Part shown: positions 24,143 through 37,198 of the stretch, one piece after another | How the letters are laid out: every line of letters begins with the position of its first letter | Position numbering within the stretch: position 1 is the stretch's first letter | Assembly (NCBI RefSeq): GCF_004136315.1 | Contig: NZ_CP029562.1 | Coordinates: 3,619,501-3,683,500, forward strand | Direction: 5' to 3' | Source: Mesorhizobium sp. Pch-S | Lineage (GTDB): Bacteria > Pseudomonadota > Alphaproteobacteria > Rhizobiales > Rhizobiaceae | Length of the DNA: 64,000 bases | Position numbers and translations under genes: made by a program | Notes under the pieces: model-generated | Seen by the model: the letters and a program-made list of their open reading frames with translations, nothing else | Database searches by the model: none | What the model was told of the DNA's origin: nothing

Positions 24143-25033
24143 CTATGCAGCATCCTTGGTGAGCAGCCGCTCCGGTGTTGTTTCCAGAAGCGCCTGATAG
24201 AGATCGGGACGTCTATCGCGGAACACGCCCCAGCTGCGGCGGGCAGCCGCGATCTCATCGAGATCGAGAGCGGCCGTGATCACGCTCTCGGAGACACGGT
24301 CGGCTTCGGCAAGCTTGGCACCGGTGTGGTCGGTGATGAAGGACGAGCCGTAGAACACCACCTCGTTCATTTCACCCTTTTCAACGCCGATCCGGTTGGC
24401 GGCAATGACCGGAGTAAGATTGGCGCCGGCGTGGCCTTGCATGACACGTTGCCAATGGTCTCTCGAGTCCCAGCCGGGATAGGACGGTTCCGAACCAATG
24501 GCGGTGGGGTAGACCAACACCTCGGCGCCCATCAGCACCATGGCGCGTGCCGCTTCGGGGAACCACTGGTCCCAGCAGACACCCGCGCCGATCTTGCCGG
24601 CCGCGGTTTCGAAGACCCTGAAACCGGTATCGCCATCGGCGAAGTAGAGCTTTTCGGAATAGCCGGGGCTGTTGGGAATGTGGCTCTTGCGATAATGGCC
24701 GAGCACCTTGCCGTCGGCGTCGATCATCACCAGTGTGTTGAACAATCTCGAACCGTCGCGCTCGAACAGGGACACGGGTAGAACGGTGCCTGTTTCACGC
24801 GCCAGGGCAGCCATGCGAGCGACGGTCGGATGGCCGTCGAGGGGGCGGGCACGGACATTGTGACGTTTGTCCTCGTCCATGCAGAAATAGACACCTTCGA
24901 ACAGTTCCTGCAGAACGACAAGCTGGGCACCGCGCCTTGCAACCGCGCGGACATGGTGTTCAAGCTTGTCGAGATTGGCTTCGATCTCGTCGGTGCAGGA
25001 AATCTGGACGGCGGCTGCAATCAGCTGACGCAT
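24143..25033 (-). CDS. aguB: N-carbamoylputrescine amidase
   Basis: A 296-residue nitrilase-superfamily amidase that turns N-carbamoylputrescine into putrescine, CO2 and ammonia. The Glu-Lys-Cys triad is intact: Glu43 in 'VLQELFEG', Lys116 in 'YRKSHIPNSPGY', Cys153 in 'GVCWDQWFPE'. The sequence throughout is typical of AguB rather than of other nitrilases. It has no signal peptide and acts in the cytoplasm. It follows the Tat-signal agmatine deiminase gene by 8 bp. Confidence 0.95.
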   Translation of the reverse strand: MRQLIAAAVQISCTDEIEANLDKLEHHVRAVARRGAQLVVLQELFEGVYFCMDEDKRHNVRARPLDGHPTVARMAALARETGTVLPVSLFERDGSRLFNTLVMIDADGKVLGHYRKSHIPNSPGYSEKLYFADGDTGFRVFETAAGKIGAGVCWDQWFPEAARAMVLMGAEVLVYPTAIGSEPSYPGWDSRDHWQRVMQGHAGANLTPVIAANRIGVEKGEMNEVVFYGSSFITDHTGAKLAEADRVSESVITAALDLDEIAAARRSWGVFRDRRPDLYQALLETTPERLLTKDAA

Positions 25034-25041
25034 GGTTCACC

Positions 25042-26151
25042 TTATCGGGGTTGCTGTTGTGTGACGCAGTGGATGCCGCCGCCGTTCTCGTAGATGCGGT
25101 CCATATCGAGCTGCACGATGCGGCGCTCCGGATGCAGCCGGCCGAGCGTTTCCCTGGCAAAGGCATCGGCTTTCCTGTCGCCGAACTGCGGCGTGTAGAG
25201 CGCGCCGTTGCCGACATAGTAGTTGGCATAGCTGGTCAGGAAGTCCTCGCTCGTGGAGCGCGCATTCGTGGCGGAGGGAATTGAAATCACCTCGAAAGCA
25301 CGGCCGCGGGCATCTTTGGCCTTGGCCAGGATGGCGAGCGCCTCTTCGTGAGCCCGACCCCATTCGGACGTATCGCCTGGCCAACTACTGGCCACGAGCA
25401 GCCCGGGTTTCACGAAGCGGATCGAACCATCGATATGCCCGTCGGTGATGTCCTTGCCGCGGACGCCAGGGACCCAGACCACGACCTCGACGCCGAGCGT
25501 CTTCTTGAGGTGCTGCTCGATCTCGGCGCGACCGAGCCCGGGGTTCCGGTTGTCGTTGACCCAGCAGCTCTCGGTGAGCAGCAAGGTGCCGTGGCCGTCA
25601 TATTCGATGCCGCCCCCTTCGCCTCTGATCGAAAAGACCCGACGATCGGCCCCGACAGACTTGGCGACGCTGGAAGCGATCTCGGCATCATGCGCATGCG
25701 CCTGCTTGTTGCCCCAGCCATTGAAGCGGAAATCGACCGCGGCAATCGTGCCACCTGAAGTTCGCACGAACACCGGTCCGGAATCGCGCATCCACATGTC
25801 GTCGGTCGCGATGTCGATGAGCTCGACTTCAGGACCACACAGCTCTGCCGCAAGAGCATGATGTTCCGCAGCCGCGGCCATTGTCACCGGCTCGTTCTCG
25901 GCGATGGCTGCCGCCAGGCGGCCGAGCGTCTCCTGGACACTTTCGTAATAAGCGCCCGGCCCGCCATAAACGGCCGGCGTGCTTGGCCAGGCCATCCAGG
26001 TCCTGGCATGCGGTTCAGCCTCGGAGGGAACAGTCACCTTCCGGCTTTCCGCGTTCGCCGACTTGATCGCGATCTCAGGCATGAGCGCCAATCCTGCTGC
26101 TGCCGTGATGACGTGACGACGTGTCCATGATGGCTCCTTTCGTTCGTCCAT
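25042..26151 (-). CDS. aguA: Agmatine deiminase with Tat signal peptide
   Basis: A 369-residue agmatine deiminase (agmatine to N-carbamoylputrescine plus ammonia). The N-terminus has a twin-arginine signal, 'SWTRRHVITAAAGLALM', predicting export to the periplasm. The guanidine-modifying fold is complete: 'MWMRDSGPVF', 'ITDGHIDG' and the C-terminal 'GGGIHCVTQQQP' with nucleophile Cys362. Its start ATG overlaps the stop of the preceding deiminase gene (TAATG), so the two are translationally coupled. An exported copy beside a cytosolic copy is unusual. Confidence 0.92.
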   Translation of the reverse strand: MDERKEPSWTRRHVITAAAGLALMPEIAIKSANAESRKVTVPSEAEPHARTWMAWPSTPAVYGGPGAYYESVQETLGRLAAAIAENEPVTMAAAAEHHALAAELCGPEVELIDIATDDMWMRDSGPVFVRTSGGTIAAVDFRFNGWGNKQAHAHDAEIASSVAKSVGADRRVFSIRGEGGGIEYDGHGTLLLTESCWVNDNRNPGLGRAEIEQHLKKTLGVEVVVWVPGVRGKDITDGHIDGSIRFVKPGLLVASSWPGDTSEWGRAHEEALAILAKAKDARGRAFEVISIPSATNARSTSEDFLTSYANYYVGNGALYTPQFGDRKADAFARETLGRLHPERRIVQLDMDRIYENGGGIHCVTQQQPR

Positions 26152-27173
26152 TACAGGGGCTGTTCCTGGGTGATGCAGTGGATGGCGCCTCCGGCGGGCA
26201 CGACAGCGCCGACGTCGACGGTGACGATGCGTCGATCCGGGAAGGCGCGTGCGACCGCTGCCATGGCCTCTTCACCCGAAGGACGGCCGAAGGTCGGCAT
26301 GACGATGCCGCCGTTGGCAATGGCAAAGTTGATGTAGGAACGTGCGAACACGTCGCTGGTCGCCTCGACATCGTAAGCCTCGGGAATGGGGATGACGTCG
26401 AAACTGCGCCCGCGCGCGTCGGTCTGGCTGCGCAGGGCCGCAAGATTGTCGGCAAGGATGCGCCCATGCAGGTCCGCCGGGTCGGGATTGTATTCGAACA
26501 TCACCACGCCGGGTCGGACGAAGCAGCACATGCCATCGACATGGCCATCCGTTTCGAGATCCAGCGGGTCGCCTGGCAGCCACACGACCTTTTCGAGGCC
26601 GAGCATGCGGACGAGTTCCTTCTCCACCCACGCCTTCGACACGCCAGGATTGCGGTTGGAATGCAGCAGGCTGGTCTCGGTCACGATCAGCGTTCCTTCG
26701 CCGTCGGTGGTCAGCGAGCCACCTTCACAATGGAGGAAGGAACGAAGGGCAAGTGCATCTTCTCGAGCCAGGATGCGTTCGGCCAGCGCATTGTCCTGAT
26801 CATAAGGTTCGTGCTTGCAGCCCCAGGCGTTGAAGCGCCAGGACACGCCACCGAGGTTGCCATCGGCAAGCTTCAGGAAGGTCGGGCCTGAATCGCGGAT
26901 CCAGCAATCGTCGATCGGGATCTCCACGACATCGATGTCTTTTCCAAGCTGGGCATGAGCATCCTTGGCGTGATCGGGATGAACCACCATGCTGACGGGT
27001 TCGAACTGAGCAATGGCATGGGCGACATCGGCATAGGCCTGCTGCATTGCCGGCAAATTGGCGCCATACAAGTCCTGGCGGTGGGGCCAAGCCATCCACG
27101 TCTTCGCATGCGGCTCGAATTCCGCCGGCCGACGAAATTTCAGCCGCTGCGCCGGCCACTCGATGGCATTCAT
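26151..27173 (-). CDS. aguA: Agmatine deiminase (cytosolic paralogue)
   Basis: A 340-residue agmatine deiminase without a signal peptide. It keeps 'CWIRDSGPTF', 'ETDGHVDG' and the C-terminal 'GGAIHCITQEQP' with Cys333; the glycine before the Ile is Ala compared with the more usual GGGIHC. The start at 27173 follows GGAGAG; in-frame upstream ATGs at 27203 and 27230 are less likely. It is the first gene of the agu operon, divergent from a LysR regulator with 96 bp between. Confidence 0.92.
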   Translation of the reverse strand: MNAIEWPAQRLKFRRPAEFEPHAKTWMAWPHRQDLYGANLPAMQQAYADVAHAIAQFEPVSMVVHPDHAKDAHAQLGKDIDVVEIPIDDCWIRDSGPTFLKLADGNLGGVSWRFNAWGCKHEPYDQDNALAERILAREDALALRSFLHCEGGSLTTDGEGTLIVTETSLLHSNRNPGVSKAWVEKELVRMLGLEKVVWLPGDPLDLETDGHVDGMCCFVRPGVVMFEYNPDPADLHGRILADNLAALRSQTDARGRSFDVIPIPEAYDVEATSDVFARSYINFAIANGGIVMPTFGRPSGEEAMAAVARAFPDRRIVTVDVGAVVPAGGAIHCITQEQPL

Positions 27174-27182
27174 CAAAACTCT

Positions 27183-27273
27183 CCATTCATGTATGGAGCT
27201 CATTGTTATGCCGATGCCGATCCTATACAACTGAGAAGGATTCCTGCTTTTATTGAATGGAATTCATGTATGG
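27183..27273. promoter_or_regulatory. Repeated candidate LysR site between aguA and lysR
   Basis: CCAT-t-CATG-t-ATGG at 27183-27196 is an interrupted palindrome; its part attcatgtatgg is repeated exactly at 27262-27273, where it includes the regulator's own ATG. Two copies in a 96-bp divergent promoter suggest activator/repressor sites. Confidence 0.45.
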
Positions 27274-28220: not shown

Positions 28221-29375
28221 TCAGCGCCCGAGTTCTCGCAGCCATTTTTCGAAAGTCGGCGTCGGCGATTGATCGATGTGGGTAACGGCAGGCAACTGGC
28301 CGGTGGCGGCCTTCCGGACATCGCTCGGGCTTAGCCTGAATTCGTGGATGAACGCGCGCGTGAAATTCGCCGCGACGTCAAAGCCTGCCTCCTCGGCAAT
28401 GTCCAATACGCGCTGGTTGTTGGCCGGATCGCTGAGCGCCGCGTAGGCATCCTGCAGGCGCTTCCTGCGTATGTAGTTGAGAACGCCACCGCTTGCCTCG
28501 AACAGCTGGTAGAGACGCGTACGGGAGATGCCCATCGCACGAGAGATGCTGTCGGGATTGAGGTCCTGCGAGCCGAGGTTGCTGTGAATGTAGTGGTGCA
28601 CCCGTTCCATCGCGCTCAATGTCAGCGGATTGACGCCGTTCTGGCGATTGGCTGCTGCTTCTGCAAGGCAGGTGACGAGCATGTCTCGTATTGTGTACAC
28701 GATCTTCACGAGGTCGCTCGCCACAAGTGTCGGCAGCCTTGTTTCGACGCTGCCGATATAGTCGATCAAAAGGGTTGCGTAGTTGCCCGTGAAGACTGAA
28801 TTGTTGGCCGCGACCAGCATGCCCGCGTTGCCGGCGAACAGGTCGTACGGCATGTAGAGCAGGGTCACCTCGCTTTCGGTGGCCCGTCCCCGATAAGGGT
28901 GGCCGAGCGAACGAAATGTGACGGTATCGCGGCGGCTTTCCACGACATGGCCATCGACCTCGGTCCAGGCGTTTCCCCTGTGTGGAATGCCGATGTACCA
29001 ATGATCTATAGAGCTCGAACGCAGTTTTTCAGCCGACCGTGCGTAACGATATGCATCGGTGCGCTGCCGCACGAGCAGCATCTTGCCAAGGTTCCAGGCG
29101 GTATGTTCAGCAGCAAAACCATTTTGCGGGGCTACCCCGTCGGGCAGATTGACTTCGACTATGGGCTCCAGATGAGAGCGCCAGATGCTGAATTGTTCTG
29201 CCGGTTCGAACTGTGCTGTTGAAAAGCGCAGCGGTGTGAGGGCTGGCGGCGCGGAGAAAACCGCATCATTCGTCTGATCGGTGTCGCGTGGCCAACGCCG
29301 CCGCTCCACGCGAGGCGTCCCTTCCGGGTCGGCTGACGCGTTCAACCTATCAGGCTGGTCTGAACGATCGCTCAT
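28221..29375 (-). CDS. AraC family regulator, CuxR-like
   Basis: A 384-residue AraC-type regulator. The first 45 residues are polar and probably disordered; residues about 50-220 form an AraC_binding_2 cupin-like domain; the C-terminal 110 residues carry the two helix-turn-helix motifs ('ISRAMGISRTRLYQLFEASG' and 'VLDIAEEAGFDVAANFTRAF'). It is divergent from the uxs polysaccharide operon, as cuxR is in S. meliloti, where CuxR is a c-di-GMP-dependent activator of uxs1. I infer orthology from position and family; I could not confirm the c-di-GMP contact residues. The start follows GGAGATCTTGA. Confidence 0.8.
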   Translation of the reverse strand: MSDRSDQPDRLNASADPEGTPRVERRRWPRDTDQTNDAVFSAPPALTPLRFSTAQFEPAEQFSIWRSHLEPIVEVNLPDGVAPQNGFAAEHTAWNLGKMLLVRQRTDAYRYARSAEKLRSSSIDHWYIGIPHRGNAWTEVDGHVVESRRDTVTFRSLGHPYRGRATESEVTLLYMPYDLFAGNAGMLVAANNSVFTGNYATLLIDYIGSVETRLPTLVASDLVKIVYTIRDMLVTCLAEAAANRQNGVNPLTLSAMERVHHYIHSNLGSQDLNPDSISRAMGISRTRLYQLFEASGGVLNYIRRKRLQDAYAALSDPANNQRVLDIAEEAGFDVAANFTRAFIHEFRLSPSDVRKAATGQLPAVTHIDQSPTPTFEKWLRELGR

Positions 29376-29760
29376 TCAAGATCTCCAACCCAGACCATGT
29401 CGCCGAACAAACGCTGCAACCTTTCAAAAAGTTGCAGAGTAAAAGTCGGCTTTTTCTACATGCCCCAGATTCATGGCGACAATTTGTGGTCGCGGAATCA
29501 TCCAGACCGGGCCGCATTTCACATACGCGTCGTCGCCAGATTTGGCTGAGAGAAATGTACACCAGGATAACATCTCGGATTCAAGGATAACGACAGCTCC
29601 AGGAACATATGCTCTAAATATTTAATGTCTAATTACCAATTAACATCGTTAAATATTGGTGTCTTGAGGGGGTGTATCCAAATAATATTTGGAAAAAATT
29701 CTGAAATTTGAAAACAAAAAAGCAAAAATCTGAGTTTGCGTAAAATCGTTGGAGGCGTTG
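29376..29760. other. Long AT-rich regulatory region before the uxs operon
   Basis: 385 bp between the divergent AraC gene and uxs, with no gene seen. It is clearly more AT-rich than the surroundings from about 29605 onward. It contains a direct repeat (29615-29630 and 29650-29664) described separately, and should hold the activator-dependent promoter of the polysaccharide operon. Confidence 0.7.
29615..29664. promoter_or_regulatory. Direct repeat, candidate AraC/CuxR binding site
   Basis: TAAATATTTAATGTCT at 29615-29630 and TAAATATTGGTGTCT at 29650-29664 share TAAATATT and TGTCT with a 35-bp offset. AraC-family proteins bind direct repeats; the second copy ends 97 bp upstream of the uxs start. 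Confidence 0.45.
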
Positions 29761-30819
29761 TTGAGTAGAGTAACCAACTATTTGTTTCATTCCGAGCCGG
29801 CAAATATTGAGCCGGCTTGGAATGACATTTTGACGCCGCCGCGTCCCAAATCTTCCAAGACAATTCTCGTTGCCGGTGGTGCGGGGTTTCTGGGCTCGCA
29901 TTTGTGCGAGCTCCTGATCCGCAAAGGACATCGGGTCGTCTGTATCGACAATTTCTCCACGGGCAGGCCGGAAAACGTCCGGCACCTCAGGTCGTCGGGG
30001 GCCTTCACATTGCTTCGTCACGATGTCGTTGACCCGATCGATCTGAAGGTCGACGAGATCTACAATCTCGCTTGTCCGGCTTCACCGCCGCACTACCAGG
30101 CCGATCCGATCCATACCACCAAGACCAGTGTGCTTGGCGCTCTGAACCTGCTGGAAAATGCTGCCCGCTACAACGCGCGCATCCTTCAGGCCTCGACTTC
30201 AGAGGTCTATGGCGATCCGAATGTTCATCCGCAGGTCGAGAGCTACTGGGGAAACGTCAATCCCTTCGGGCCGCGCTCGTGCTACGATGAAGGCAAGCGT
30301 TGCGCCGAGACGTTGTTCCACGACTTCAGCAGGATCCGCGGCGTCGAAATCAAGATTGTCCGCATCTTCAATACCTACGGGCCGCGGATGCGGCCTGACG
30401 ATGGCCGCGTTATTTCCAATTTCATAGTCCAGGCTCTCCGGGACGAGGATATCACCATTCACGGCGATGGTTCGCAGACGCGTTCCTTCTGCTTTGTCGA
30501 TGACCTGGTTGACGGCTTCCTGTCCATGATGGCGTCACCGGCGTCACTGACGGGACCAGTCAATCTGGGCAATCCGGTCGAGTTTACAGTCGCCGAACTC
30601 GCCGGCCAGGTTCTTGCCCTGACTGGGTCGCGGTCGCGCATCGTCCACCGCCCGCTGCCGACAGACGATCCGCGTCAGCGGCGTCCCGACATTTCGCTGG
30701 CGATGCACGAACTCGGTTGGCAGCCAAGGGTGGTGCTGGCGGAGGGGTTGAAAAGAACCATAGCCTATTTCGAAGCCGTCCTCGCTGCGGAACGCCGCAA
30801 GCTTACCGAGGTGGCATGA
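29761..30819 (+). CDS. uxs1: UDP-glucuronate decarboxylase (UDP-xylose synthase)
   Basis: A 352-residue extended SDR that converts UDP-glucuronate to UDP-xylose with bound NAD. '[16 protein letters not shown]' is the cofactor motif, '[19 protein letters not shown]' is diagnostic of UDP-xylose synthases, and 'SCYDEGKR' holds the catalytic Tyr-x3-Lys. No ATG precedes the conserved core; GGAGG at 29751-29755 points to a TTG start at 29761 (TTG 29749 or 29758 are alternatives). It is the first gene of a seven-gene operon and is followed by uxe with an ATGA overlap. Confidence 0.9.
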
Positions 30820-31805
30820 TGGGCAGCCGGCGTATCCTCGTCACCGGCGGTGCCGGCTACATCGGAAGCCACACAGCCAAGCTGCTGCGGTCGAGAGGCC
30901 TGGAGCCCGTCGTCTATGACAATCTGGCAACGGGCAACCGTTCGTCGGTGCGCTGGGGCCCATTCGTGCACGGTGATGTGCTGGATACCGTTCACCTGAC
31001 GCGCACGATGGAACTGTTTCAACCGACGGCCGCCATTCATTTTGCTGCCTCCGCCTATGTCGGCGAATCCGTCGAGGATCCTTCGAAATATTACCACAAC
31101 AACGTCGCGGGCATGTTGTCGCTGCTCGACGCCGCCCGGCAGGCGGGCCTGGAAAAGGTCATCTTCTCCTCCAGTTGCGCCACCTATGGCGTGCCCGCCA
31201 GTCTTCCGATCGCCGAAAGCATGCCGCAGGTCCCGATCAATCCCTACGGCAAGACGAAGCTGATGGCGGAACAGATGCTGGCCGACTACGCCACTGCCTT
31301 TGGCCTGCACTATGTGGCGCTGCGCTATTTCAATGCCTGCGGGGCGGACCCCGAAGGTGAACTTGGCGAATGGCATGATCCCGAAACGCATCTCATTCCG
31401 CGGGCGTTGCTGGCCGCCGCCGGCCGCATCGAAAGGCTCGAAGTATTCGGTGACGATTATGACACAGCCGACGGCACCTGCGTCCGCGACTACATCCACG
31501 TCAGTGATCTCGCCTGGGCACATGTACTCGCCTACGAGCATCTGGCGCGGGGTGGCGGCAATCTCGCCGTGAATCTCGGCACCGGGCGTGGTGCCTCGAT
31601 CCTCGAAATCCTCGAAACCATCGATCGCGTCACCGGGCACAGTGTCCCCATCGCGATCCAGCCGCGTCGCGCCGGTGATCCACCCGTGCTTTACGCCGAT
31701 CCAAGTCTCGCCCGCTCGACACTTGGCTTCTCGCCGCAATACTCAGATCTCGACACCATTGTGCGCACAGCGGCACCGTTCTTCGGATTGGGAGCGTGCC
31801 CATGA
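30816..31805 (+). CDS. uxe: UDP-sugar 4-epimerase (UDP-xylose/UDP-glucose 4-epimerase)
   Basis: A 329-residue GalE-family epimerase: '[16 protein letters not shown]' at the N-terminus, '[10 protein letters not shown]' and 'NPYGKTK' (Tyr-x3-Lys). In S. meliloti the enzyme at this position interconverts UDP-xylose and UDP-arabinose and can also act on UDP-glucose/galactose; sequence alone cannot separate these. Placement directly after the UDP-xylose synthase, with start ATG overlapping its stop (ATGA), argues for UDP-arabinose formation here. Confidence 0.87.
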
Positions 31806-33649
31806 CGGCGTGTACCACCAGCGAGACTCGCGGCCTTCGCCTCAGCCAGAAGCCGTTGCTGGCGCCGGTTCTCCGCGGTTATCGCCGTGCAGAGTACTTC
31901 GTCGGCGTGACATTGTGGCTAGCAGCCCTGCTTTATTTCTGGATCTGGTGGTTCAAGCCATCCCATCATTTCAGCCTGTTCGGAAGTGCTTTGACCACCT
32001 ACGAACTGGCCTGGATCACGCTTATGCCGGTCTATCTGATCGTCGTTTTTGCGGGTGCCCGGCAATCTGTTGGCCCCTTGCGAATACCTGCTGGCAGCCG
32101 CGTCGCGATGGTGGTGACCAAGGCTCCGTCGGAGCCGTTCTCGATCGTTGCCGAGACGTTGCGTGCGATGCTGGCCCAGACCGTTCCGCACGACACCTGG
32201 CTTGCCGACGAGGATCCATCACCTGCAGTGATCGACTGGTGCCGTCGTCATGGCGTGTTCGTTTCAACCCGCCGCGGGCGGGCCGACTATCACCGCGCTA
32301 CGTGGCCGCGCCGCACACGCTGCAAGGAAGGCAACCTCGCTTTTTTCTACGACCACTATGGCTATGACCGCTATGATTTTGTCTCGCAGCTGGACGCCGA
32401 CCATGTGCCGGAGCCCGACTATCTGTGGAACATGCTGCGGCCGTTCGCCGATCCTTCGATCGGTTATGTCTCTGCGCCGAGTATCTGCGACCGCAATGCT
32501 CGCCAAAGCTGGTCGGCGCGGGGGCGGCTCTATGCAGAGGCCAGCCTTCATGGGGCGATGCAGGTTGGCCACAACGCCGGGCTCGCTCCGCTCTGCTTCG
32601 GATCACACTACGCGGTGCGCACCGCAGCGCTCAAGGAAATCGGTGGCCTGGGGCCGGAACTGGCCGAGGATCATTCGACGACGTTGATGATGAACGCGCA
32701 TGGCTGGCGCGGAATCCATGCGGTGAACGCGATCGCACATGGTGATGGTCCCAGTACCTTTGCCGATCTCGTCACCCAGGAATTCCAGTGGTCGCGCAGC
32801 CTGGTGACGTTGCTGCTGCAACATTCGCCGATCTACGTGCCTCACCTGCCGCGACGGTTGCAGTTCCAGTTCCTGTTTTCCCAGCTCTGGTATCCGCTCT
32901 TTTCTTCGTTGATGGCCCTGATGGTGGCGACACCGGTCATTGCGCTGCTTCGCGACGAAAATTTCGTGGCGGTCACCTATCCGGATTTCCTGATGCATTT
33001 CCTGCCGCAATGGCTGGTCCTTATCGGACTGTGCTTCCGTTGGCGCGCCGCAGGCTGTTTCAGGCCCGTCGATGCCAAGATCTGGAGCTGGGAAAGCGCA
33101 TTCTTCCTGTTGGCCCGCTGGCCATGGGCACTCGCTGGCAGCGTCTCTGCTCTGCGCGACTGGATGACCGGAACCTTTGTCGAGTTTCGCGTTACCCCCA
33201 AGGGAACTTCGGAAGTCGATCCGTTGCCGTTCAGGGTCTACGCGCCCTACGTGGCGATCGCCGTAGGCTCCGCCTTGCCGGCCTTGTTGATCGATGACGC
33301 CAACGCTGGTCGCGGTTTCTATCTTTTCGCAATCATCAACAGCGTTTTCTACACCCTGCTGACGGTCGTCATCCTGGCCAGGCATGGTCGTGAAAATCGT
33401 TTGAGGACGGTCAGCCGGTTTTATCGCCCGGCGGTGACCGCAGGCGTTCTCTCCATGATCGCGCTGCCAGCGTTTGCTGCTGTCCTGCATGGCCGCGAGA
33501 GTGTCGAGGTTCTCGCCTGGGGCACGCAACATCTTCAGCTTTTCGAGGAGCGCTATTCGGCTGCCGGTGCCGGTATCGGCCGGACGGAGGTGCGAAAAAC
33601 CGTGTTCAGGCCGCATTGGCGCTGGGCGATCGAAGATACGACGGAATGA
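31802..33649 (+). CDS. Processive family 2 glycosyltransferase (cellulose-synthase-like)
   Basis: A 615-residue membrane glycosyltransferase. Two hydrophobic segments near the N-terminus are followed by a GT2 domain with 'ADEDPS', the nucleotide-binding 'QLDADHVPEPDY' and the catalytic base region 'LAEDHSTT', then several C-terminal membrane helices. The acceptor motif normally written Q-x-x-R-W reads Q-E-F-Q-W here, followed by SRS. It would polymerise and extrude a glycan from nucleotide sugars made by its operon partners. Its start overlaps the uxe stop (ATGA). No BcsB or PilZ domain partner is seen. Confidence 0.87.
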   Translation: MTACTTSETRGLRLSQKPLLAPVLRGYRRAEYFVGVTLWLAALLYFWIWWFKPSHHFSLFGSALTTYELAWITLMPVYLIVVFAGARQSVGPLRIPAGSRVAMVVTKAPSEPFSIVAETLRAMLAQTVPHDTWLADEDPSPAVIDWCRRHGVFVSTRRGRADYHRATWPRRTRCKEGNLAFFYDHYGYDRYDFVSQLDADHVPEPDYLWNMLRPFADPSIGYVSAPSICDRNARQSWSARGRLYAEASLHGAMQVGHNAGLAPLCFGSHYAVRTAALKEIGGLGPELAEDHSTTLMMNAHGWRGIHAVNAIAHGDGPSTFADLVTQEFQWSRSLVTLLLQHSPIYVPHLPRRLQFQFLFSQLWYPLFSSLMALMVATPVIALLRDENFVAVTYPDFLMHFLPQWLVLIGLCFRWRAAGCFRPVDAKIWSWESAFFLLARWPWALAGSVSALRDWMTGTFVEFRVTPKGTSEVDPLPFRVYAPYVAIAVGSALPALLIDDANAGRGFYLFAIINSVFYTLLTVVILARHGRENRLRTVSRFYRPAVTAGVLSMIALPAFAAVLHGRESVEVLAWGTQHLQLFEERYSAAGAGIGRTEVRKTVFRPHWRWAIEDTTE

Positions 33650-33685
33650 GTGCTTAAATGGAGGCGCCGCAGGGCGTTGGATGCC

Positions 33686-35077
33686 ATGAAGATCGCAGTC
33701 ATTGGAACCGGTTATGTCGGCCTCGTCAGCGGTACATGCTTTGCTGAATGGGGTCATGAGGTGATCTGCGTCGACAAGAACGTCGACAAAATCTCGGGTC
33801 TACTCAAAGGACGATTGCCGATTTACGAGCCGGACCTCGACAAGATGGTTGCACGCAACCAGGCGGCGAAACGACTTGCTTTTACCTGTGATCTTGCCGC
33901 GGCGGTGACGAATGCGCAGGTCGTGTTCATCGCGGTCGGAACGCCTTCGCGGGCAGGGCAGGGTGACGCCGATCTTTCGTTCGTCTACATGGCGGCGCGC
34001 GAGATGGCGCCGTTCCTGGCGGAAGGCGCGGTGGTCGCGGTCAAGTCGACAGTCCCTGTCAGTACAGGCGACGCGGTGGAAAAGATCATCGCCCGTGCGC
34101 GTCCCTACGGGTCTTTTTCGGTAGCGTCCAACCCGGAATTCCTGCGCGAAGGCGCGGCGATCGGTGATTTCATGAGGCCGGATCGCGTGGTCGTCGGCGT
34201 CGAGGACGGTCGTGCGCGTGCTGTGATGGCAGCACTCTACCAAGGGTCGCTGGGCGATGTTCCACTCGTCTTCACGGACAGGCGTACATCGGAGCTCATC
34301 AAATATGCCGCCAACGCCTTTCTGGCTACCAAGATCACATTCATCAACGAGCTGGCGGATCTCTGCGAGAAGGTCGGCAGCAATGTAGGTGAGCTGGCGC
34401 TGGGCATAGGGCTTGATCGGCGTATCGGCACCAGCTTCCTCAATGCGGGTCCAGGCTACGGTGGATCCTGCTTCCCCAAGGATACGCTCGCGCTGCTGAG
34501 GACCGCTCAGGACTATGGCGTGGTTCTGCGCATCGTGGAGGAAACGATCGTCGCCAACGAGGCCCGCAAGCGCAAGATGGCGCTCAAGGTCATCGAGGCT
34601 GTCGGTGGTGACGTCGAGGGGCTGACGATCGCCGTGCTCGGATTGACCTTCAAGCCAGACACCGACGACATGCGCGAGGCACCATCGGTGCCGCTGATCG
34701 AGACACTGCAGCGCTATGGGGCCAACGTCCGTGCCTATGATCCCGTCGGACTGGAGAATGCCGCACGCATGCTGGAGGACGTCACCCTGCTTGACGATCC
34801 TTACGAATGCGCTCGCAATTCGGATGCGGTGGTGGTGCTTACCGAATGGGACAGCATCCGCCGCATCGACCTAGGCCGTCTCAGGCGGCTGGTGCGGACG
34901 CCGGTGCTCGTCGATCTGCGCAATGCGATCGAACCGGGCGCGGCGTCCGCCGCAGGCTTCCACGTTTCGGTGGTCGGGCAACGCTCCGAGCACGCGGAAT
35001 GGGCGAACCCCACAACGGACGAGCCGGATTTCGAAAAGACAGCCTCCGGTTTGCCTCGGATGGTGCGTGGAAAGTGA
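33686..35077 (+). CDS. ugd: UDP-glucose 6-dehydrogenase
   Basis: A 463-residue enzyme oxidising UDP-glucose to UDP-glucuronate with two NAD. 'AVIGTGYVGLVSGTCFAEWG' is the NAD motif, 'AGPGYGGSCFPKDT' carries the catalytic Cys, and 'LGLTFKPDTDDMREAPS' is the UDP-binding C-terminal motif. It supplies the substrate of the UDP-xylose synthase encoded earlier in the operon, completing UDP-Glc to UDP-GlcA to UDP-Xyl to UDP-Ara. ATG at 33686, 36 bp after the glycosyltransferase stop. Confidence 0.96.
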   Translation: MKIAVIGTGYVGLVSGTCFAEWGHEVICVDKNVDKISGLLKGRLPIYEPDLDKMVARNQAAKRLAFTCDLAAAVTNAQVVFIAVGTPSRAGQGDADLSFVYMAAREMAPFLAEGAVVAVKSTVPVSTGDAVEKIIARARPYGSFSVASNPEFLREGAAIGDFMRPDRVVVGVEDGRARAVMAALYQGSLGDVPLVFTDRRTSELIKYAANAFLATKITFINELADLCEKVGSNVGELALGIGLDRRIGTSFLNAGPGYGGSCFPKDTLALLRTAQDYGVVLRIVEETIVANEARKRKMALKVIEAVGGDVEGLTIAVLGLTFKPDTDDMREAPSVPLIETLQRYGANVRAYDPVGLENAARMLEDVTLLDDPYECARNSDAVVVLTEWDSIRRIDLGRLRRLVRTPVLVDLRNAIEPGAASAAGFHVSVVGQRSEHAEWANPTTDEPDFEKTASGLPRMVRGK

Positions 35078-35084
35078 GGCGCAG

Positions 35085-35681
35085 ATGAACACTCATGTCA
35101 TCGATTGCCTGCGGCGCAGCGGTGTTGCTTTCGGCACGTGGCCGTTGACGCTCGTGGCTTTCGGTCTCGCACTGTGCGGTGGAGCGGCTACTGCTGCCGC
35201 GGAGCCAAGCGCGGTGCCGGCTCAGGCGAGAGTCATGACTGCGCTTGAGCTACATGACCTTTATCGGGACAAGACCTGGCAGTGGAGCGATGGCGCGGGA
35301 CGCTTCCAGGAAGAAGGTCGCATTTTCCGGGCCTGGTCTGGCAACGGAGCCAATGCCAGTTGGGCAGAGGGGCGTTGGACCCTGACCAATGACGGGCAGT
35401 TGTGCCTGCGGGCTGTATGGCACAGCCCGGGCGGCAGCTCCCCCAAAAAGACCTGCTTCCGCCACAAGCTTCATGACGGCACGGTCTATCAAAAGAAGGA
35501 GCCGTCAGGCGCCTGGTATGTGTTCAAGCACGCGGCGCCTGACAAGGACGACGAGTATGTCAAGCTCGTCGAACAAGACACGGTGAGCGCCAAGGTGATG
35601 GCCTATCGGCCGGTGGCGCAAGAGATGACAACCCCAAAAACCGTACCGCTTCCGACGCCAGCGCCGGTCGGTGCGCAATGA
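35085..35681 (+). CDS. DUF995 family exported protein (first copy)
   Basis: A 198-residue protein with an N-terminal hydrophobic segment or signal (residues 12-40, ending ATAAAEP). The body matches DUF995: 'LYRDKTWQWSDGAGRFQEE' and then 'WTLTNDGQLCLRAVWH', with cysteine pair and 'KKEPSGAWYVFKH'. Function is unknown; the family is frequent in Rhizobiales polysaccharide loci. It starts 7 bp after ugd and has a paralogue two genes on. Confidence 0.82.
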   Translation: MNTHVIDCLRRSGVAFGTWPLTLVAFGLALCGGAATAAAEPSAVPAQARVMTALELHDLYRDKTWQWSDGAGRFQEEGRIFRAWSGNGANASWAEGRWTLTNDGQLCLRAVWHSPGGSSPKKTCFRHKLHDGTVYQKKEPSGAWYVFKHAAPDKDDEYVKLVEQDTVSAKVMAYRPVAQEMTTPKTVPLPTPAPVGAQ

Positions 35682-35696
35682 TAGCGGAGAACGACC

Positions 35697-36659
35697 ATGA
35701 GAAGGAAATTAGCGGTTATCGCGCTCTCGTGCGCGGGACTGATGCTGAACGGGGCGGGCCTCGCGGCCAACCAACGCCCCCTGGGCATTCCCAACGAAAA
35801 CTCGGCGACGGCAACCATGCCTTCGGACAAGCGTCCGGTGATCACGCCGGCGTCCGTCGGTTTCGGGGCCTACGATCCTCACGGTGATTTCGGCAGCGAC
35901 GCCAATTCGAAGATCGAGCATCTGTTCCTGCCCTGGGAAGATGTCGATCTTCGCACGCTCGCGCTGGCCGACGACTATGCGCAGAAACGCGGGCGTTCCC
36001 TGCTCATCACCGTCGAGCCATGGTCTTGGTCGCCCAACTGGCGGCTGTCTTCATCGCAATTGCTGTACAGCGTCCTGAGCGGTGAACGCGACGGCTACAT
36101 GGCTGCCGTCTGCTCCGAGGCCGCGAAGCTGAAAAGCGATGTCACCATTCGCTGGGCACAGGAAATGGACGAAACCGACAACCAGTTCACCTGGGCACAC
36201 TGGAATCCGCCGGACTATGCGAAAGCCTATCAACGCATGGTGACCGTGTGCCGCGAGCACAACAAGACCGCAAAATACATGTGGTCGCCGAAGGGCAATG
36301 AAGGCCTGGAGGCATTCTATCCCGGCACCAACTTTGTCGACATCGTCGGCCTCTCGGTGTTCGGCTACCAACCCTATGACCAGGGTGTCATCGGCCATGA
36401 CACGAGTTTCGTCGAGCAGATGCGGGAGAAATATGCCCGCGTCAAAGGCTTCGGCAAGCCGATCATGGTTGCAGAACTCGGCTATGAAGGGGATGCCGGC
36501 TATGTCAAGGATTGGGCACAGAGCGTCGCCAAATCCTATCCGGAATTTCCCGAGTTGAAGGCCATCGTCTACTTCGACGATCGCGAGGTTTATCCCTGGC
36601 CGAAAGGGTACGGCCTGCCGAACTGGCGCGTGGTGCAGACGCGCGAAGCATCGAATTGA
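35697..36659 (+). CDS. GH26-like glycoside hydrolase, exported
   Basis: A 320-residue protein with a signal peptide (cleavage after GLAA). The body is a beta/alpha-barrel hydrolase resembling family GH26 mannanases/xylanases: 'IRWAQEMDETDNQFTWAHW' supplies the putative acid/base Glu and 'KPIMVAELGYEGDAGYV' the putative nucleophile Glu. It probably trims or releases the polysaccharide made by the operon, as hydrolases in synthase loci commonly do. Substrate linkage is unknown. Confidence 0.82.
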   Translation: MRRKLAVIALSCAGLMLNGAGLAANQRPLGIPNENSATATMPSDKRPVITPASVGFGAYDPHGDFGSDANSKIEHLFLPWEDVDLRTLALADDYAQKRGRSLLITVEPWSWSPNWRLSSSQLLYSVLSGERDGYMAAVCSEAAKLKSDVTIRWAQEMDETDNQFTWAHWNPPDYAKAYQRMVTVCREHNKTAKYMWSPKGNEGLEAFYPGTNFVDIVGLSVFGYQPYDQGVIGHDTSFVEQMREKYARVKGFGKPIMVAELGYEGDAGYVKDWAQSVAKSYPEFPELKAIVYFDDREVYPWPKGYGLPNWRVVQTREASN

Positions 36660-36685
36660 ATGAGGCGAGGGGTGGGAGAAAAGAG

Positions 36686-37198
36686 ATGACCATTGCACAC
36701 GGACTGATCATGGTTGCGGCACTGGTCGGCGCGGCGGGCGCTGCAACGGTTGCCGCCTCGGCTGCGCCCAGCGCCGCCACGATCAAACAGGCCGAACCGC
36801 TCAGCAACGAAGACCTTTATCGGCTCTACAGCCAGCGGTCATGGATATGGAAAGACGGCGCCGGCTATTTTGCCGTGCCGCAGCGCCGTTTTTCGGCGTG
36901 GACGGGGAAGGGCAGGAACGCTTCCTATGGGGTAGGGAGCTGGTTCATTACCGATGCTGGCCGGCTTTGCTTCAAAGCCGACTGGTATGCCAAGATCGGC
37001 GCCGCGCCGGCTCTTACCTGCTTCAGCCACCGCAGGAAGGGCAACGTCATATTCCAGAAGCGTGAGCCGAAGGGCGATTGGTATGTCTTCGCAAACGCGC
37101 CGGTCCGGAAGGGTGATGAAATCACCAAGCTGCGGCGGGGCGATTATGTCGTCGCAAAATTGGGCAAGGTCGAGGACAGACTGGCACTCAAGCGCTGA
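36686..37198 (+). CDS. DUF995 family exported protein (second copy)
   Basis: A 170-residue paralogue of the product at 35085-35681, with a signal-like N-terminus (residues 1-27) and the same blocks: 'LYRLYSQRSWIWKDGAGYF', 'WFITDAGRLCFKADW', 'QKREPKGDWYVFANA'. Unknown function. Last gene of the operon, followed by a dispersed repeat. Confidence 0.82.
   Translation: MTIAHGLIMVAALVGAAGAATVAASAAPSAATIKQAEPLSNEDLYRLYSQRSWIWKDGAGYFAVPQRRFSAWTGKGRNASYGVGSWFITDAGRLCFKADWYAKIGAAPALTCFSHRRKGNVIFQKREPKGDWYVFANAPVRKGDEITKLRRGDYVVAKLGKVEDRLALKR

Follow-up and report, generated by a model that had tools for sequence, protein, structure and literature searches.

A polysaccharide locus of Mesorhizobium sp. 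Pch-S with a CuxR-like regulator, its own ugd gene and a conserved upstream box proposed as the CuxR operator

We have analysed a stretch of 64,000 nucleotides from Mesorhizobium sp. Pch-S (contig NZ_CP029562.1, positions 3,619,501 to 3,683,500), here termed the window, which at positions 28221-37198 contains eight genes of a presumptive polysaccharide locus. As identified from the list of open reading frames (ORFs) and a Pfam scan, the gene of an AraC-type regulator diverges from seven genes with the order uxs-uxe-GT2-ugd-DUF995-GH26-DUF995, where GT2 and GH26 refer to a family 2 glycosyltransferase and a family 26 glycoside hydrolase. All eight genes were found in the order, on the strands and within the outer coordinates given in a preliminary description of this DNA. 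The locus appears to be of the arabinose-containing polysaccharide (APS) type found in Sinorhizobium meliloti, and a conserved box preceding uxs is proposed to be the operator of the regulator CuxR, a receptor of the messenger cyclic di-guanosine monophosphate (c-di-GMP). Its features are as follows (aa, amino acids; SDR, short-chain dehydrogenase/reductase; UDP, uridine diphosphate):

28221..29375, minus strand: CuxR-like AraC regulator of 384 aa, matching 5NLA, with an HTH_18 domain and an RxxxR motif (ERRRWPR, residues 24-30)
29551..29595, plus strand: CuxR box, proposed operator, AGAAATGTACACCAGGATAACATCTCGGATTCAAGGATAACGACA; conserved footprint with a 41-bp core at 29555-29595
29590..29618, plus strand: predicted uxs promoter, with -35 ACGACA (29590-29595), a 17-bp spacer and a -10-like TCTAAA (29613-29618)
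29761..30819, plus strand: uxs, UDP-glucuronate decarboxylase (UDP-xylose synthase), an SDR protein matching UXS1; TTG start presumed, longest ORF from 29749
30816..31805, plus strand: uxe, UDP-xylose/UDP-glucose 4-epimerase-like SDR protein matching 4TWR
31802..33649, plus strand: apsS, cellulose-synthase-like GT2 and proposed polymerase, with a GT2 domain in Pfam, a match to BcsA and the motifs described below
33686..35077, plus strand: ugd, UDP-glucose 6-dehydrogenase, with three UDPG_MGDP_dh domains and TIGR03026
35085..35681, plus strand: apsH1, DUF995 protein (PF06191, 178 bits), N terminus signal-like by eye
35697..36659, plus strand: apsE, GH26-like hydrolase (PF02156, 28.2 bits at a cut-off of 20.2), N terminus signal-like by eye
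36686..37198, plus strand: apsH2, DUF995 protein (PF06191, 175.5 bits)

The start of uxs is most likely the TTG at 29761, preceded by GGAGG, because three relatives show a GTG at the aligned position, and the ATG of uxe at 30816 overlaps the uxs stop codon. With refined starts for apsS (ATG 31802 or GTG 31796), ugd (ATG 33686), apsH1 (ATG 35085), apsE (ATG 35697) and apsH2 (ATG 36686), neighbouring genes either overlap or are at most 36 nucleotides apart, a layout that fits a single transcript of the seven plus-strand genes. The arrangement is not a product of chance, because it is seen in many other genomes. The genome consists of a single 6.62-Mb contig, which carries the operon, and the nearest named records are a Mesorhizobium contig (L003, 86% for CuxR; labels starting with L and G denote loci and genomes) and a DUF995 protein listed under M. 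amorphae (98%).

The operon of S. meliloti makes an arabinose-containing polysaccharide according to PMC7902896 (section 18). On the annotated pSymB replicon of this organism (L010, CP073680.1), genes for an SDR protein, a galE-like protein, a GT2, a DUF995, a GH26 and another DUF995 protein stand beside the regulator, and by position the GH26 gene of the window corresponds to apsE and its DUF995 genes to apsH1 and apsH2. Both loci share the divergent cuxR, the gene order and the box upstream of uxs, with identities of about 52% for CuxR, 74% for Uxs, 77% for Uxe, 69% for ApsS and 67% for ApsE. They differ in ugd, which is absent from the S. meliloti operon and sits between apsS and apsH1 in the window, in their location on pSymB and on a single 6.6-Mb contig, respectively, and in their neighbouring genes. 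The likeness to the cuxR-uxs1-uxe locus of S. meliloti suggested previously is thus borne out across uxs-uxe-apsS-apsH1-apsE-apsH2, whose order is the same apart from ugd. The accompanying view that the polymer and the roles of the GH26-like and DUF995 proteins were undescribed does not apply to the system, since the S. meliloti operon is treated in PMC7902896, while for the GH26 and DUF995 roles it stands within the portions of the literature covered. The type of system is already known, and the assignment of the locus to it is well supported; what is added here is the putative operator, at which CuxR is predicted to bind, together with its wider targets. In the original work, the polymer is said to be mainly composed of arabinose, Uxe to be bifunctional and MucR to oppose CuxR, for which a crystal structure has reportedly been determined.

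To place the locus in context, we surveyed 68 loci encoding ApsS (the window, L010 and 66 others), which were picked by similarity to the proteins of the window and include 50 of 59 genomes with ApsE, the nine others being left out; L003-L006, L008 and L009 were omitted from tree and counts as duplicates of other surveyed contigs. One of these, L006 (JAHREI010000003.1), is titled Bacillus subtilis and contains a complete cuxR-APS locus; it is probably mislabelled or contaminated, because the locus closely resembles that of the Rhizobiales record L005. The placement of ugd within the operon of the window proved real, and when counted from tblastn matches that follow apsS on its strand at a distance of up to about 4.5 kb, the gene is found in 40 of the 68 loci (32 with CuxR in the stretch and 8 without), with the 28 loci lacking it dividing into 11 with CuxR and 17 without. 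It is thus present in 32 of the 43 CuxR-linked loci, and an operonic ugd is the commoner state among the surveyed loci and not special to the window. A quick ApsS tree with long branches, used for the ugd pattern only, groups every CuxR-linked locus except L078 into one clade of 46 rows. Of these, 32 carry ugd, and the 14 ugd-less rows include eight from the S. meliloti group, the largest group without the gene. The distribution requires 12 changes on this tree, which points to frequent gains or losses. Compared with the 39 other operonic copies, the ugd of the window shows 51-95% identity, whereas the three other over-cut-off copies in its own genome reach 46% at most, so that the gene is no recent local copy. 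The ApsS loci L079-L088 and L120-L129, which lie outside the CuxR clade, have no adjacent CuxR and, where scored, no box.

The regulator finds its best PDB match in 5NLA (E 1.1e-117, 396 bits, residues 20-380), which is CuxR of S. meliloti according to PMC7499043, and the similarity extends over the full length of the protein, in line with its earlier description as CuxR-like. CuxR binds c-di-GMP via an RxxxR motif, as stated in PMC9045272. The loss of c-di-GMP contact residues, named at the outset as the observation that would speak against this assignment, is not the case for RxxxR, with the N-terminal, PilZ-like motif in ERRRWPR at residues 24-30 being intact. Across the loci sampled, the extended motif [DE]RRxxxR is found in 53 of 59 CuxR-like ORFs, comprising 42 of the 45 ORFs from APS loci and 11 of the 14 others. 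It is missing from the ORF of L071, which has no N-terminal half, from that of L117, a second AraC gene, and from the relatives at L078 (37%) and at L060, L061 and L089 (33-35%). The arginines are constant while the inner letters vary (ERRLLPR, ERRQSVR), as would be expected for a binding motif. Four further residues, R113, W137, R155 and R164, are kept together with RxxxR and differ in L060 and L061, an observation that does no more than hint at a role. By analogy, the regulator of the window would bind c-di-GMP and activate transcription of uxs. An inverted repeat, ACGCTGCAACCTTT/AAAAGTTGCAGAGT, at 29411-29440 between cuxR and the box is largely kept in L042 and L043 and is perhaps a cuxR leader or an autoregulatory element.

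When the regions upstream of uxs were aligned group by group for ten loci, four of the Mesorhizobium type and six others with S. meliloti among them, one conserved block emerged in all. This box comprises 41-45 bp with the consensus AGAAATGnACGnnnnGATAAnTTTCCGGATTCnnnGATAACGACA, and the autocorrelation of its profile peaks at 20 bp, which fits two tandem half-sites. Scored on 18 fixed positions, the box reaches 13-18 in 42 of the 43 CuxR-linked APS loci; the exception, L078, scores 11, and its AraC protein also lacks RxxxR. The weakest boxes come close to the maximum obtained from shuffled sequences (13 compared to 12 in L103, and 14 or 15 compared to 12-13 in four others), so that single weak cases prove nothing. 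Among the APS loci without adjacent CuxR, 24 of 25 were scored, L129 having no uxs, and 22 of these reach 8-11, including L090, whose upstream sequence is too short for a judgement. The two others, L098 and L100, score 17 and 16. A search for CuxR in 12 genomes without an adjacent copy, four of them picked for their box or their place in the CuxR clade, gave matches in six: G663 and G576, the genomes of L098 and L100 (53%), G622, G613 and G522 (49-54%), and G756, with a 25% match containing an internal stop. Both box-bearing loci without adjacent CuxR thus have CuxR in the genome. Among 42 loci, 36 have T in the column located 17 bp past the box, 32 have A in the next column and 26 have T in the one thereafter, with the TAT of S. 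meliloti starting one base later. This TAt would put AYGACA, the hexamer closing the box, in the -35 place, as is typical of a class II activator. We thus propose that the box is the operator of CuxR, which may already have been published in part; PMC11387232 makes no mention of CuxR.

In the genome of the window, the box is the sole match with up to three mismatches. Among 146 genomes of the genus, a match with up to two mismatches is found in 57, compared to none for a backward-pattern control, and CuxR, defined by an E-value of 1e-40 or better, in 63. Both occur together in 55 genomes, CuxR only in 8, the box only in 2 and neither in 81 (Fisher p 7.5e-29, uncorrected for relatedness). Three of the genomes with CuxR only (G042, G133 and G136) have 33-35% relatives only, and the two sampled (L061, L089) are without RxxxR. 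In 49 further survey genomes, the box with up to three mismatches is present in 36, again with none for the backward control. The 13 genomes without it comprise G733, G828 and 11 of 12 genomes whose APS locus lies outside the CuxR clade with no adjacent CuxR, the twelfth, G522, having a box beside a detached cuxR.

The box is also found in front of other genes, many of these sites having one to three mismatches with a chance level gauged by the backward control alone. In four loci from three genomes of the Sinorhizobium group (L187, L189, L190 and L191; Pfam on two), it precedes a LuxR-type (GerE) gene; other loci have it before an SDR gene beside a detached cuxR that by eye is uxs-like (L192), genes for cadherin/Ig-domain proteins (L193, just over the Pfam cut-off, and L195) and a histidine kinase gene (L194). 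In one genome (L196), separate boxes stand before a DUF995 gene and an acyltransferase gene, and another (L204) has, close to a detached cuxR, genes for HlyD and a cellulose-synthase-like GT2, with some 1.1 kb between the box and the start of the first of them; in L188 and L198-L203, boxes were found without a clear target. In the 11 sampled loci of the genus with CuxR and no APS genes (L045-L055), where RxxxR is intact, a box lies divergent from cuxR in every case and a second box in four. Where displayed (for example L143, L145 and L159), the cuxR-divergent box precedes an ORF of about 100 aa resembling a helix-turn-helix protein, with Pfam matches below cut-off only, and in 10 of 13 displayed loci the ORF behind the second box resembles a DNA-ligase-domain protein (Pfam on one). 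A GGDEF-EAL gene follows cuxR in L053, and by visual inspection L045 and L046 contain similar ORFs. We consider the chances to be even that the CuxR box defines a c-di-GMP regulon for matrix components across the Rhizobiales, in which case such regulons could be read directly from genome sequence.

Among the enzymes of the operon, Uxs matches four UXS1 chains with 371-374 bits compared to 143 bits for the next family, which argues for a UDP-xylose synthase rather than another SDR enzyme. Uxe is closest to the UDP-glucose 4-epimerase 4TWR (E 2.9e-154, 516 bits), so that epimerisation of UDP-xylose and UDP-glucose is inseparable by sequence. ApsS aligns to BcsA over residues 169-412 (E 1e-15), covering the GT2 core and the following stretch, and contains the motifs DAD (67 of 68 loci, with one gap) and AED (68 of 68). 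Processive GT2 enzymes carry a QxxRW motif, which was not found in ApsS, where QEFQW takes its place in 68 of 68 sequences. ApsS thus shares the GT2 core with the cellulose synthase BcsA and differs from it in QEFQW and in having no PilZ domain, which was not found in the 11 ApsS proteins scanned (that of the window and ten without adjacent CuxR); a PilZ domain of their own, which synthases without CuxR had been expected to carry in some cases, was thus found in none of the ten. Unlike in cellulose synthase systems, no gene in the operon of the window matches BcsB or BcsC in Pfam.

In ApsE, E156 (in RxxxEM) and E260 (in AELG) are invariant in 68 of 68 sequences and are proposed as catalytic residues, which from GH26 motifs we take to be the acid/base and the nucleophile. 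The fold of ApsE was modelled because a sequence search of the PDB gave no match. The model, with a mean predicted local distance difference test (pLDDT) score of 72 and values below 50 in residues 1-63, finds its best Foldseek match in the GH26 lichenase CtLic26 (2CIT, E 8.8e-13), followed further down by beta-1,4-galactanases and GH26 mannanases. At 19% identity, ApsE shares with CtLic26 the fold and the pair of invariant glutamates within motifs like those of GH26. L095, L097, L109 and others have, close to the operon and in opposite orientation, a second GH26-like gene that is 36-38% identical to apsE. Both apsH1 and apsH2 encode clear members of DUF995; the model of ApsH1 shows a small beta barrel (mean pLDDT 79, with 120 of its 198 residues scoring at least 90), and fold searches gave middling matches to small barrels and lipocalin-like proteins, none decisive. 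A 473-aa protein (P0097, JGI source) fuses DUF995 to a GH26 domain and so ties DUF995 to the hydrolase. The complete genome contains no match to the mutase families PF03214 (RGP) and PF03275 (GLF), for which control scans of 14 genomes gave matches in 1 and 4, respectively, and arabinopyranosyl residues are thus expected. An inverting GT2 would lead to alpha-L-arabinopyranosyl links, which geometrically resemble beta-D-galactosyl links. The product may thus be a polymer of alpha-linked L-arabinopyranose that would be cleavable by a GH26 enzyme.

Taken together, gene content, RxxxR, the conserved box and invariant catalytic residues suggest the following mechanism. A rise in c-di-GMP would lead the CuxR-like regulator to bind the messenger through its N-terminal RxxxR, whereupon a dimer would occupy the pair of tandem half-sites at 29551-29595, which are spaced by about 20 bp, and recruit RNA polymerase with the last box hexamer as -35. 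Ugd would then provide UDP-glucuronate, Uxs UDP-xylose and Uxe UDP-L-arabinopyranose, which ApsS may polymerise across the inner membrane, with ApsE and the DUF995 proteins presumably acting on the polymer as it is exported or trimmed. The steps from c-di-GMP binding, dimer formation, box occupancy and activation to export and the identity and linkage of the polymer are in this scheme predicted. We assign a probability of about 0.8 to the reading as a whole, that is, an APS locus of the S. meliloti type that includes ugd and is controlled by CuxR and c-di-GMP through the box.

Several observations weigh against this reading. The -10 element of the window, TCTAAA, is weak, and a consensus promoter scan, whose results were no better than chance, listed no promoter at the box. 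G027 and G145 have a two-mismatch box without CuxR, and conversely G015, G079, G090 and G140, with CuxR of a type 39-42% identical, and G059, where the match is partial, have no box at two mismatches; in three sampled loci of the 39-42% type (L057-L059), the boxes score 14 or 15 of 18. G733 and G828 are CuxR-linked, but their boxes are weak and none is detected at three mismatches, and L094 (G613) has no box although its genome contains CuxR, which adjoins a second APS copy (L197). On the side of the product, Uxe is indistinguishable from GalE by sequence, the missing GLF and RGP leave room for another mutase, and no operon gene resembles an outer-membrane exporter in the Pfam scan.

Instead of CuxR, some other activator or repressor, such as a MucR- or LysR-type protein, could bind the box, with the link to CuxR reflecting shared regional ancestry. 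What connects CuxR to the box is co-occurrence and position, the Fisher test is inflated by related genomes, the region from box to uxs includes an AT-rich stretch and a LysR gene adjoins the locus of the window. However, the box still precedes uxs in loci with cuxR downstream of the operon (L070-L073, L076, L113, L114, L116, L118, L119), it accompanies all 11 of the cuxR copies apart from APS genes described above and it is present at L098 and L100 with cuxR elsewhere in the genome, whereas a LysR match is found beside cuxR in few loci only. We thus regard a different regulator as improbable and retain CuxR as the candidate protein acting at the box.

Somewhat less remote, yet still unlikely, is a polymer that contains xylose or galactose, or is mixed, rather than being an arabinan, as might be argued from the resemblance of Uxe to GalE, from UDP-xylose being an intermediate of the pathway and from the lichenase, galactanase and mannanase among the fold neighbours of ApsE. 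It is countered by the arabinose in the product of the S. meliloti operon (PMC7902896), whose gene content is otherwise equal. An arabinofuranose-containing polymer made via an unrecognised mutase would find room in the fact that our search covered two known families, but with no PF03214 or PF03275 match in the complete genome and no operon gene matching such a mutase family in Pfam, we view this variant as hardly probable and favour L-arabinopyranose.

The locus of the window extends a known polysaccharide system under c-di-GMP control, and it shows that the S. meliloti operon without ugd, although serving as model, is less common than the form with the gene. Should CuxR indeed use the box as its operator, a single promoter would become a c-di-GMP regulon that is searchable in genomes, with adhesin-like proteins, a second synthase, an acyltransferase and a second-tier regulator as candidate targets. 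The chemical prediction is an arabinopyranan with equatorial linkages that would be cleavable by a GH26 enzyme.

Elsewhere in the window, positions 24143-27230 on the minus strand contain three adjacent ORFs, which we take to encode a carbon-nitrogen hydrolase and two agmatine-deiminase-like proteins.

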